Positions 30,990 to 58,251 of a stretch of DNA of 64,000 nucleotides are shown here, piece by piece (within the stretch, counting starts at the first letter, position 1; every line of letters begins with the position of its first letter). This stretch comes from Providencia alcalifaciens (lineage in GTDB: Bacteria; Pseudomonadota; Gammaproteobacteria; Enterobacterales; Enterobacteriaceae). The stretch spans positions 682,001-746,000 of the forward strand of contig NZ_OU659204.1 of NCBI RefSeq assembly GCF_915403165.1, read 5' to 3'. The notes beneath the pieces are model-generated. The model was not told the DNA's origin and did no database searches. It saw only the letters and a list, made by a program, of their open reading frames with translations. A program made the translations under genes and the position numbers.

Positions 30990-31496
30990 ATGCGTTCTTC
31001 CAAATTTAAAAAAGGTATTGCGAAAGGTAATACACTGAAAAACCTCATTTTAGGATCAATGTTGTCTATACTATCTTTTATGGCAGTCGCAGAAGAAATC
31101 GGCTCAGTGGATACGGTATTCAAGGTGCTTGGCCCTGACCATAAAATAGTCGTTGAAGCTTTTGATGACCCGGATGTGGACAATGTGACTTGCTACCTAA
31201 GCCGTTCAAAAACGGGCGGGATTAAAGGCGGACTTGGATTAGCGGAAGATACCTCGGACGCGGCCATTTCCTGCCAACAAGTGGGTCCTATTGAGCTAAA
31301 TGACCGAGTGAAACGTAACCCGAAAAAAGGGCAGGTGGTTTTCCAAAAGAGAACGTCACTGGTGTTTAAAAAGCTCCAAGTGGTTCGTTTTTACGACCCA
31401 AAACGTAATGCACTCGTCTATTTGACCTATTCCGATAAGATGATCGACGGCTCGCCTAAAAATGCGTTAAGCGCTGTGCCGATTATGCCGTGGTGA
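30990..31496 (+). CDS. creA: CreA protein
   Basis: Small exported protein of unknown function, 168 residues. The N-terminus is basic and then hydrophobic ([21 protein letters not shown]), a likely signal peptide. The mature part carries the CreA-family blocks [18 protein letters not shown] and [10 protein letters not shown], with two cysteines. In E. coli creA heads creABCD. Here creBCD are absent: the gene is followed by a terminator and then by a defence-type gene on the opposite strand. Confidence 0.93.
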
Positions 31497-31503
31497 TGGG
31501 TTA

Positions 31504-31533
31504 AGATGTCAGTAATACACTTTACTGGCATCT
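31504..31533. terminator. Terminator after creA
   Basis: A 12-bp stem with one G-T pair (arms 31504-31515 and 31522-31533) begins eight bases after the creA stop. The sequence after it is A/T rich on both strands, and it may also serve the converging abi gene. Confidence 0.7.
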
Positions 31534-31575
31534 TATTTAAAATGACTCATGCTAACAATCAGTTCACTTTGATTA

Positions 31576-32532
31576 TTATGACCAGAATGGATCCGCATGC
31601 CATTTTTCCGGGAAGCCTGCGCTATCTAAATAGCTTTTTACGCAGTGGTATTTTCCTATTAATGTTGTTAAATCGTCATATAAATTAATATCTTGTATAC
31701 CTAAAGACAATAATATTCTATGTGTCATTGCGAATGAGGTATAGATGCGATTGTCATTTGTTGGTGAGGTATTAAGTAATCGAATGATATGTGAAGGTGC
31801 CCGTAAGTTTGCGTTCCATAATCGACTATGGTGAGCACAACGATTTCTTATATCTCTAAGTGTTCTAGCCCAAGAACAAAGTATTTTAAAACTAGGCGCG
31901 CCAAATTCTAGTGCCATTGAATCCAATGGAGCACCAGAACGTTGGTTGATAATAGGTGTATTTAAGTTATCGTATATCTTTAATATTGTTCCAATACTGA
32001 GAAACTCACAGGCTATCCAAAATGGAGGTAAAAATTTATAGTTATCATGGGTAGTATTGTAATATTTTGATTTATAATGAGAGGCATACTCTTCTTTTGT
32101 ATTTGAAAACTCATTACTTATCTTGTTACGAATAGAGTCAATAGAGTAGGTATTATTGTTTTTTATATTGAACCATTGATTATCAAGATACCAAAAAGGG
32201 TTACCACTAATAGAGGACATGACTTGATCTAAGCGGCTTCTTAATTTTATTTCAATTCTCGCAATAGCCTTGAAAAGAATAAATCTAATTTGTTCATCAA
32301 ATCGATATATATCAACAGCATCTTCAAAATATTCACCTAGTCTATAGTTTTTTCCTGTAGGGCAACTAGGGTCTAACAAAGGGTGAAGGTAAATTTTAAA
32401 GTGGTAGTAGTTTATTTGAGATAATATTTTCTCTGCGATATTTTCATCAATAAAACTAAGCTGTTTTATTTTTAGATCTGAAATGATGTCCGAAGGTGTT
32501 TTATACGGCTTTATATAAGGGATATAAGGCAT
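31576..32532 (-). CDS. Abi_2-family (AbiD/AbiF-like) HEPN protein, putative phage-defence gene
   Basis: Protein of 318 residues with the features of the Abi_2 (abortive infection) family. Landmarks are an N-terminal Tyr/Pro-rich segment, INYYHFKIYL near residue 40, FDEQIRFILFKAIARIEIKLR near 78-98 and PPFWIACEFLSIGT near 170. The motif RNRCAHHSRLWN at residues 229-240 contains R-x4-H (R229, H234), the hallmark of HEPN ribonucleases. Family members abort phage infection or act as toxins. The gene is A+T rich and occupies the place of creBCD. A compact promoter-RNA-terminator unit lies just upstream on the same strand, so it may be held in check by a small RNA. The start has only a weak ribosome-binding site. 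Confidence 0.8.
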   Translation of the reverse strand: MPYIPYIKPYKTPSDIISDLKIKQLSFIDENIAEKILSQINYYHFKIYLHPLLDPSCPTGKNYRLGEYFEDAVDIYRFDEQIRFILFKAIARIEIKLRSRLDQVMSSISGNPFWYLDNQWFNIKNNNTYSIDSIRNKISNEFSNTKEEYASHYKSKYYNTTHDNYKFLPPFWIACEFLSIGTILKIYDNLNTPIINQRSGAPLDSMALEFGAPSFKILCSWARTLRDIRNRCAHHSRLWNANLRAPSHIIRLLNTSPTNDNRIYTSFAMTHRILLSLGIQDINLYDDLTTLIGKYHCVKSYLDSAGFPEKWHADPFWS

Positions 32533-32564
32533 ATTCTTGCGGTTCCATCGCGATTTTTATTAAT

Positions 32565-32630
32565 AAAAAAGCTCATTACATTCCTAAAAAACGAATGAAC
32601 GTTATAAAAGGAGCATAATGAGCGTTGTTG
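32565..32630 (-). ncRNA. Candidate small RNA upstream of the abi gene
   Basis: On the minus strand, a strong promoter is followed by about 66 bases that end in a stem (GCTCATTA at 32616-32623 pairing with TAATGAGC at 32571-32578) and six Ts. A second small stem (CATTC/GAATG) can form inside it. The unit ends about 32 bases before the abi start codon. No ORF is seen in it. A conserved RNA motif next to abiF genes has been reported, but I cannot test membership here. Confidence 0.55.
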
Positions 32631-32636
32631 TCCCTA

Positions 32637-32664
32637 ATTATGCTTATCTATTTTTTTGTGTCAA
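32637..32664 (-). promoter_or_regulatory. Sigma-70 promoter for the abi-upstream RNA
   Basis: On the minus strand TTGACA (32659-32664) and CATAAT (32637-32642) are separated by 16 bases. Both hexamers are near perfect, one of the best promoter matches in the window. Confidence 0.7.
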
Positions 32665-32700
32665 TATTTTTTCTTATTACTAGATTGAGCTTTAAATGAT

Positions 32701-32762
32701 TTTTTTCAATAAAGGCAATTAATTGTTTTATTGAAAAAAAAACCGGCTTGCGCCGGCTTTTC
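32701..32762 (-). terminator. Terminator region downstream of arcA
   Basis: A GC-rich stem (CCGGC/GCCGG, about 32743-32756) precedes a long T run on the minus strand, as expected after arcA. It is followed by a second perfect 13-bp stem (32701-32713/32727-32739) made largely from that run. Confidence 0.8.
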
Positions 32763-32778
32763 ATTAATCAGAATGAAA

Positions 32779-33495
32779 TCATTCGTCTAAATCACCGCAG
32801 AAACGGTAGCCTTCACCGTGGATGGTGGCAATGATTTCAGGGGTATCTGGCGTAGACTCAAAGTGCTTACGAATGCGACGGATAGTCACATCGACTGTTC
32901 TGTCATGAGGTTTTAACTCACGGCCAGTCATTTTCTTCAGTAAGTCTGCACGAGTTTGGATTTTGCCTGGGTTTTCACAGAAGTGAAGCATTGCACGGAA
33001 TTCACTACGTGGTAATTTGTAGTGTTCACCAGCAGGGCTCACTAAAGAACGGCTATTAATGTCTAATTCCCAGCCATTGAATTTATAGCTCTCAACCAGA
33101 CGGCGTTCTTCTGTACCACCCGCTAAATTCATAGTACGGGACAGTAAGTTACGTGCACGGATAGTTAATTCGCGTGGGTTGAATGGTTTGGTGATATAGT
33201 CATCAGCGCCGATTTCAAGACCAAGAATCTTATCAACTTCGTTATCACGACCAGTTAAGAACATTAATGCAATACTTTCTTGCTCACGTAGTTCACGAGC
33301 CAGCAGTAAGCCGTTTTTGCCTGGTAAGTTAATATCCATGATCACTAAGTTGATGTCATGTTCAGAAAGAACATTATTCATTTCTTCACCATCGGTGGCT
33401 TCATGAACAACATAGCCTTCCGCTTCAAAGATACTTTTCAGCGTATTACGTGTGACAATCTCGTCTTCAACGATCAAAATGTGTGGGGTCTGCAT
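32779..33495 (-). CDS. arcA: Response regulator ArcA (aerobic respiration control)
   Basis: OmpR-family regulator that, phosphorylated by ArcB, represses respiratory and TCA genes when oxygen is low. It has 238 residues, the same as E. coli. The receiver domain spans about residues 1-120, with the phosphoacceptor aspartate in VIMDINLPG. The winged-helix DNA-binding domain follows and ends in [15 protein letters not shown] perfect FNR-type box lies about 260 bases upstream, fitting the known activation of arcA by FNR. Confidence 0.98.
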
Positions 33496-34592: not shown

Positions 34593-34688
34593 ATGTTCCC
34601 TACGAGACAAACAAATTTTATGCGTAACATCAGCCTGACTACGATTATTACCACCACCACCGTGACCACAGGAAACGGGGCGGGCTGA
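34593..34688 (+). CDS. thrL: thr operon leader peptide
   Basis: Regulatory peptide that controls the thr attenuator. The C-terminal part, ISLTTIITTTTVTTGNGAG, is packed with Thr and Ile codons and ends in the same TTGNGAG as E. coli. Two in-frame starts exist. ATG at 34593 (31 residues) has AGGGAG eight bases upstream; ATG at 34620 (22 residues) is closer in length to E. coli (21) but has no good ribosome-binding site. I prefer 34593. A ribosome stalled at the Thr/Ile codons would free the anti-terminator pairing. Confidence 0.9.
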   Translation: MFPTRQTNFMRNISLTTIITTTTVTTGNGAG

Positions 34689-34747
34689 CGCATCCAAAAA
34701 ATAAAAATGAAAAAGCCCGCATCCTAAAAAGATGTGGGCTTTTTTTT
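34680..34747 (+). terminator. thr operon attenuator
   Basis: The terminator stem (AGCCCGCATC at 34714-34723 pairing with GATGTGGGCT at 34731-34740) is followed by seven or more Ts. The GCGGGCT at 34680-34686, at the end of thrL, can instead pair with AGCCCGC of the stem. This is the alternative fold used when charged tRNA-Thr or tRNA-Ile is scarce. Confidence 0.9.
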
Positions 34748-34772
34748 GGCGCTAATTCAGGAGAGAAATACC

Positions 34773-57002: not shown

Positions 57003-57081
57003 GGGCGCAGTGACTATCGCAATAATGTTAAATAGTGACTGATACCGGACACGGGCGTTGAGGGAACTCTGCGCCCGTGTC
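57003..57081 (+). other. dnaK-dnaJ spacer with two competing hairpins
   Basis: The segment 57072-57081 pairs perfectly with 57048-57057 (10 bp). An overlapping segment, 57069-57076, pairs with 57003-57010 (8 bp, GC-rich). Only one can form at a time. Neither is followed by a T run. Confidence 0.55.
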
Positions 57082-57102
57082 TGCATGTTAAGGGAAAAAT
57101 AA

Positions 57103-58251
57103 ATGGCGAAAAGAGATTTTTATGAGGTTTTAGACCTCGAAAAAAATGCTTCAGAAAAAGACATCAAGCGAGCGTACAAGCGCTTAGCAATGAAATACCA
57201 TCCTGACCGCAATCAGGAAAACAAAGATGAATCTGAAGAGAAATTTAAAGAGATAAAAGAAGCTTACGAAATCCTGTCCGATGAGCAAAAACGTGCCGCT
57301 TACGACCAATATGGTCATGCCGCGTTTGAACAAGGCGGTATGGGTGGCGGCGGTGGATTCGGCGGCTTTGGTGGCGGCGACTTCAACAGTGATATTTTTG
57401 GTGACATCTTCGGTGACATCTTTGGTGGCGGTCGTCGTCAACAGCGCCCAAGCCGTGGTTCTGATCTGCAATACAACATGGAACTGACTCTTGAAGAAGC
57501 AGTCCGTGGAGTGACCAAAGAGATCCGTATTCCAACGCTCGAAAGCTGTGACGTGTGCCACGGTAGCGGTGCAAAACCAGGCACTAGCGCAGATACATGC
57601 CAAACCTGTCACGGTATGGGCCAAGTACACATGCGCCAAGGTTTCTTCTCGGTACAACAACCTTGTCCAACCTGTCATGGTCGCGGGAAAGTCATCAAAG
57701 ACCCATGCAACAAATGTCATGGTCAAGGTCGCGTTGAGAAATACAAAACCTTATCTGTTAAGATCCCAGCAGGGGTTGATACGGGTGACCGCGTTCGTTT
57801 ATCCGGTGAAGGTGAAGCCGGTGCGAATGGTGCACCAGCAGGGGATTTATTCGTTCAAATGCATGTTTTACCTCACGATATTTTTGAGCGTGATGGTAAT
57901 AACTTACATTGCGAAGTGCCAATCAACTTTGCAGCAGCAGCACTGGGCGGCGAAATTGAAGTCCCAACCCTTGATGGTCGCGTTAAACTGAAAATTCCTG
58001 CGGAAACCCAAACGGGCAAAACATTCCGTATGAAAGGTAAGGGCGTGAAGTCGGTACGTGGTGGTATACAAGGTGACTTAATGTGTCACATTGTTGTCGA
58101 AACCCCGGTCAAGCTGAATGAGAAACAAAAAGAGTTACTTAAAGAATTTGGTGAGTCATTAGGTGGCACGGGTGGCGAGAAAAATAGCCCACGTTCAAAA
58201 CGCTTTTTAGATGGCGTGAAAAAATTCTTTGATGACTTAACCAATAAATAA
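57103..58251 (+). CDS. dnaJ: Chaperone DnaJ (Hsp40)
   Basis: Co-chaperone that delivers substrates to DnaK and stimulates its ATPase. It has 382 residues (376 in E. coli). The J domain holds the HPD motif in MKYHPDRNQ, followed by a glycine/phenylalanine-rich stretch. Four zinc-binding repeats are seen: [24 protein letters not shown] and CNKCHGQG. It is 110 bases after dnaK and surely in the same operon. Confidence 0.98.

Follow-up and report, generated by a model that had tools for sequence, protein, structure and literature searches.

The window, by which the whole 64-kb stretch of DNA analysed is meant, carries on its minus strand a unit of about 1.1 kb between arcA (32779-33495) and creA (30990-31496), in which a promoter is followed by a predicted RNA of about 66 nt (a hairpin and six T), a 32-nt spacer and an Abi_2 gene. 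The sequence-only reading of this DNA had described a near-consensus minus-strand promoter, a leader of about 66 bases, a stem with six Ts ending about 32 bases before the gene and an Abi_2 gene with R-x4-H, and each was recovered where it had been placed, with the ATG of the gene at 32532.

Features of the unit in the creA-arcA interval
Feature	Position	Strand	Basis
sigma70-type promoter	32637-32664	-	TTGACA, 16-nt spacer, CATAAT; 11/12 consensus bases
-35 TTGACA	32664-32659	-	sequence
-10 CATAAT	32642-32637	-	sequence
Predicted small RNA, ~66 nt: short AACAAC leader, hairpin, six U	32565-32630	-	fold, covariance-model match, covariation in relatives; ends inferred
Hairpin	32571-32623	-	arms 32623-32614 / 32580-32571; minimum-free-energy and centroid folds agree
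Inner 4-bp helix of hairpin	32612-32609 with 32585-32582	-	same folds
T-run, six T	32570-32565	-	sequence
Abi_2 (AbiD/AbiF-type) gene, 318 aa	31576-32532	-	PF07751 156 bits; HEPN motif R229-N-R-C-A-H234

The TTGACA/CATAAT pair was the sole match at the 11/12 level in 31400-33000, where the 9/12 level gave 7 matches against a shuffle mean of 6.9 (no excess), and 13 nt separate the end of its -10 from the stem. Between the RNA and the Abi_2 gene, no second minus-strand promoter was found among the listed promoter matches. Upstream, arcA closes with a hairpin and T-run of its own (read from the sequence), and expression of the Abi_2 gene from the arcA promoter was rejected because these would terminate arcA transcription. 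A reading frame of 15 codons (32501-32548, minus strand), which opens 16 nt upstream of the Abi_2 ATG and overlaps the start of the gene out of frame with it, might dampen or couple toxin translation. The whole window gave only two Rfam matches at gathering score, the threonine operon leader and tpke11 (34627-34748 and 57031-57107, plus strand), both ordinary.

The protein was matched by PADLOC to AbiD (190 bits) and by PHROG to PHROG 2158 (147 bits); Abi_2 was its only Pfam match, and a search against NCBIfam gave none. A profile of 40 relatives, compared with solved chains, matched 8vz6 ('Abi family protein') over its full length (E 1.3e-57), the sole credible match of the 7 listed (runner-up E 0.02). 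The AlphaFold2 model (mean pLDDT 93.9) was searched with Foldseek, and 8vz6, there named 'PbAbiF dimer bound to ncRNA', was again found (E 5.3e-17, TM 0.81/0.87) as the only one of 57 matches below 0.001. R229 and H234 are invariant in the aligned relatives (40/40) and align with R210 and H215 of PbAbiF, the double variant of which is described as inactive (PMC12373285). By its sequence the protein is a member of a described defence family, the AbiD/AbiF group, and it is predicted, by analogy, to be an RNA-cutting phage-defence toxin.

For the RNA, the start was set 7 nt past the -10, and both ends were inferred from the sequence. Its fold (-20.2 kcal/mol, z -5.46) was equalled by none of 200 shuffles. 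The hairpin was absent from the list returned by a generic terminator scan of the window because its loop exceeds the length which the scan allows. Nearly all of the 'leader' is hairpin, and RNA body and terminator are therefore one element. A tandem-repeat search over 331 bases returned one 22-nt stretch, at the gene start and outside the RNA, in agreement with the earlier statement that the RNA lacks tandem repeats and would not be a classical ToxI. In the hairpin, ten continuous pairs are followed by a mismatch; in type B, the RNA type to which it is assigned below, a bulged A separates six pairs from three, and the head is shorter. The bulged A is absent from the RNAs of the window and of L003, and the window's RNA is an outlier within its type. 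Its own form was seen in two species, in a compared DNA set without the relatives at 61-85% identity (P0002-P0010). The upstream units of the two Providencia species are identical at 146 of 152 compared sites; the 6 differences lie between the -10 and AACAAC and in the hairpin head, and none in the outer helix.

Loci with Abi_2 genes were taken from genomes, plasmids and phages, and the DNA upstream of the starts was inspected. An initial search of genome contigs and a search of viral contigs confirmed no relative, and of the window's unit only a 240-nt stretch was found in 5426 E. coli genomes, in 3 of them. The same order of promoter, leader, hairpin, T-run and gene was present in relatives at 33-96% protein identity, with leaders that are mostly AACAAC, AATGAY or AATAAC and an outer helix of the kind GCYYGC/GUGRGC. 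The toxin clade of the window includes Providencia, Photorhabdus, Klebsiella, Hafnia, Acinetobacter, Shewanella, Marinomonas and others, partly on plasmids. A type-B unit of K. pneumoniae (L123, 1850-2930) was found 100% identical on plasmids in 3 of the 5426 E. coli genomes, and in Thiomicrospira a type-B-like hairpin (L046, 1595-1637) precedes an Abi_2 gene with an interrupted frame.

Covariation upstream of Abi_2 homologues, proposed by the sequence-only reading as a check, was positive in two alignments. In alignment A5 (20 RNAs), 91.7% of the 180 cells of the nine-pair core were paired, as opposed to 32-43% in slid controls, in which partners were moved by 1-3; these controls preserve relatedness but are biased towards the structure, which was itself derived from the same rows. 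Of the nine core pairs, 6 were altered on both sides, and covariation was 0.399 against 0.266 ± 0.022 in shuffles (0/500 as high), an excess of a kind that can arise from relatedness alone. L118, L121 (RNA as in L038), L127 (as in L124), L174 (near L039), L175 and L177 (as in L050 and L048) and L046 were omitted from A5. Alignment A3 (16 rows, without the window, L003, L124 and L176) was paired in 93.8% of 144 cells, with covariation of 0.259 against 0.195 ± 0.015, and RNAalifold returned 12 pairs for it, 6 with double changes. The bulged A beside the outer helix is maintained in the relatives' folds; a plain terminator would gain nothing from such a bulge or be impaired by it. Two relatives folded weakly against shuffles (L122, z -1.53; L119, z -2.36). 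From the end of the -10 to the stem there were 12-13 nt in 18 of 20 RNAs (best promoter within 90 nt upstream), and in the two exceptions, L047 and L124, the best promoter match was poor. This near-fixed spacing would place the transcription start about 6 nt ahead of the stem, and the RNA would then essentially be leader, hairpin and U-run.

Across 125 non-redundant Abi_2 loci (141 with a start, before near-copies and frames below 150 aa were removed), 94 had a hairpin with a T-run no more than 150 nt ahead of the start, compared with 9 of 114 control stretches taken 750-900 nt upstream and with 11.5% of shuffles; the scan requires four G-C pairs and missed the window itself, and some of its 94 hits, such as those at L053 and L079, are hairpins other than the RNA. 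Of 84 RNAs, 74 had AAC or AAT among the 9 nt preceding the stem, with 44.7 expected from shuffled leaders (the remaining 10 scan hits being untyped or listed scan errors); in type S only 1 of 4 had it.

Covariance model R1 was built from 16 relatives with the window excluded. On the 64 kb its best match was 32567-32634 (24.7 bits, E 5.6e-4), followed at 17.7 bits by a terminator-like hairpin in the threonine leader; L003 and L124 were scored at 26.3 and 21.8 bits, and the members from which R1 was built at 45.9-61.3 bits. L046 was not listed. Among 78 sources, six canonical-type RNAs were given 15.5-22.2 bits. When R1 was run over the whole 3.9-Mb genome, with 150 of 1182 first-look candidates scored, the matches listed were three other hairpins (21.0-23.9 bits) and did not include the window's RNA; the model is non-specific at genome scale. 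Given the low score and the genome-wide rivals, the assignment to type B therefore rests on the score together with the position before the gene. An ordinary intergenic intrinsic terminator, unlinked to the Abi gene, would likewise keep a stem and T-run, and the similar R1 scores of other hairpins, as well as the runner-up in the threonine leader, are what it would have in its favour; against the covariation, the promoter spacing and the frequency of such hairpins upstream of Abi_2 genes it is highly improbable. A chance terminator was rejected on the same three grounds and the R1 match, and, as far as sequence can tell, the hairpin is more than that.

The low R1 score and the missing bulged A of the RNAs of the window and L003 would also be expected of a decaying unit, in which the Providencia RNA has drifted from its toxin and the match has been lost. 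Set beside these points is the even lower R1 score of L124. The reading frame is intact, a protein 95.6% identical is encoded at the same junction in a second species, the R...H residues are kept and the outer helix is free of the differences between the two upstream units, all of which make decay most improbable.

A tree was made of 121 Abi_2 proteins of at least 250 aa (quick search, SH-aLRT support only), on which the RNA labels, assigned by visual inspection and by pattern while the sequences were visible, were A in 67 rows, B in 14, P in 14, S in 4, B' in 3 and none in 19. With the 19 untyped rows excluded, the five types required 5 changes (least possible 4), and with these rows as a sixth group 18 changes (least 5; shuffled mean 51). 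A supported set of 15 rows (14 type B, one untyped) contains the window and, together with the three B' rows, forms an enclosing set of 18. Upstream RNA types thus track toxin clades. Further hairpin types occur in other Abi_2 clades, for example in Pseudomonas, Xenorhabdus and Spirochaetes, and comprise P (L055, L065, L007, L057, L074), S (L081, L094) and B' (L128, L125, L049); those of these P-, S- and B'-type loci that were tested scored below the gathering score of RF03085.

RF03085, the covariance model of abiF RNA with which the sequence-only reading had proposed to search, did not match the window, and there was no match at E up to 10 in 32500-32800; the abiF RNA as catalogued in RF03085 was rejected for the window's RNA. 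None of 15 type-B loci was matched, and the positive control, the C. difficile phage locus L126, was given 37.6 bits. When a further 20 loci were searched, the matches at gathering score were 5/10 for the canonical type, 0/5 for type P, 0/2 for type S, 0/1 for type B' and 0/2 for untyped loci. This yield (5/10 canonical, 0/8 loci of other types) suggests that RF03085 alone undercounts such units. RF03085 reportedly stems from Weinberg 2017. A second model, R2, was made from 34 canonical abiF-like RNAs (covariation 0.435 against 0.130 ± 0.018). Among 37 sources it gave 16-26 bits to L044, L045, L124, L127 and L046, which are type B or type-B-like, and it found no match in the RNAs of the window and L003. 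The R2 scores tie type B to abiF RNA, and with the cross-matches of R1 and R2 the RNA types appear as related grades and not as sealed families; from their sequences, the canonical and B types look related.

In the genus, the creA-arcA junction (31497-32778 in the window; L150-L173) is a small variable cargo site. Among 24 genomes it held the Abi_2 unit in 2, a GIY-YIG gene in 3, a phosphoribosyltransferase-like gene in 1 and only 68-228 nt in 18. The GIY-YIG gene of L152 was matched by PADLOC to PD-T4-3 (98 bits), and the phosphoribosyltransferase-like gene weakly to ShosT (30.8 bits). The case for phage defence by the window's unit is circumstantial, consisting of defence-like genes at the same junction in related genomes.

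At the level of sequence, a structured RNA with its own promoter and terminator was found directly upstream of the Abi_2 gene. AbiF-RNA pairs are described as toxin and RNA antitoxin (PMC12373285, PMC12737573). In C. difficile, deletion of RCd22 is reported to raise abiF expression 17-fold, and RCd22 to neutralise in cis and in trans (PMC12373285); in Prevotellaceae, the ncRNA AbiFr is described as the antitoxin bound to PbAbiF (PDB 8vz6; PMC12737573, PMC12373285). By analogy with these, the unit is probably an AbiF-type toxin with its own, divergent RNA antitoxin. The earlier proposal of an RNA that restrains the Abi_2/HEPN protein, with expression of the gene by read-through, is supported, in that it fits the published AbiF systems and the conservation found. 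The promoter would yield the hairpin RNA of about 66 nt, in excess over the toxin through termination, and occasional read-through past the hairpin would give the toxin mRNA. The protein would be a toxic RNase acting as a HEPN dimer, which the RNA would neutralise by direct binding, as in AbiF of C. difficile and Prevotellaceae. One hairpin may be antitoxin body and terminator at once. Phage infection may free the toxin, for example if the short RNA is drained when host transcription stops; in the type III model, the short RNA is lost once the phage stops host transcription.

The hairpin and T-run before the gene could instead be a transcription attenuator or regulated leader which senses phage or host state and from which the released RNA has no antitoxin role, much as the 5' UTR of Lactococcus abiD1 is reported to be acted on by a phage protein and to give a short premature transcript (PMC12373285). 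This is unlikely, since bulge and leader are conserved and unneeded for termination, the RNA type tracks the toxin clade and known AbiF RNAs neutralise in trans (PMC12373285). If the unit is, as preferred here, a toxin with its antitoxin, type B could further be a separate class of AbiF antitoxin. Its hairpin of about 60 nt would bind and block the HEPN toxin, set the antitoxin-to-toxin ratio as a terminator and let the toxin sense its own presence and switch off its gene, with binding stabilising the nascent terminator hairpin; each clade would have its own hairpin key, and the Providencia key would have been re-cut, the irregularity having moved along the stem in step with the toxin. This extended scheme is put forward tentatively, and we are inclined to doubt it as a whole. 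RNA types that track toxin clades, together with an RNA missed by the reference model, make co-evolution and cross-neutralisation testable with small parts. AbiF-RNA pairs are also reported as ancestors of CRISPR-Cas13 (PMC12373285, PMC12737573), so that the range of RNA shapes which AbiF accepts is relevant to how an antitoxin could give rise to a guide RNA.

The designation of the locus as a poorly described system was too strong, as AbiF RNA-antitoxin systems are in print; the part that stands concerns the RNA variant, which lies outside RF03085 and, judged by sequence and within the literature searched, looks new in a kind of system that is already known. Like RF03085, it is a short hairpin directly upstream of Abi_2 genes, with an outer helix of 6-7 bp and, in many, an AAC-type leader; in RF03085, however, there are 3 inner pairs and, on the 3' side, a loop of 6 nt, where type B instead has 3 middle pairs and a single bulged A, and the window's RNA ten continuous pairs. 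With ToxIN (type III) the unit shares the order of RNA gene, terminator and toxin gene, but a ToxIN-type antitoxin was rejected because the RNA is without tandem repeats and the protein, whose sole Pfam match is Abi_2 and not of the ToxN family, is without a ToxN domain. PbAbiF with its ncRNA AbiFr is said to have been studied by Zilberzwige-Tal et al., Cell 2025. It is a homologous HEPN protein over the full length, with R...H aligned, at about 27% identity to the window's protein; the comparison is one of proteins. AbiF-RCd22 of the C. difficile prophage phi027 differs in that RCd22 carries two motifs of the RF03085 type, the terminator being a separate hairpin after them (PMC12373285), whereas the window has one hairpin, with the T-run on the hairpin itself and no RF03085 match. 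Both have a promoter, a short RNA and a terminator before an Abi_2 gene that is, or here would be, expressed by read-through, an arrangement described for AbiF-RCd22 as type III-like regulation (PMC12373285).
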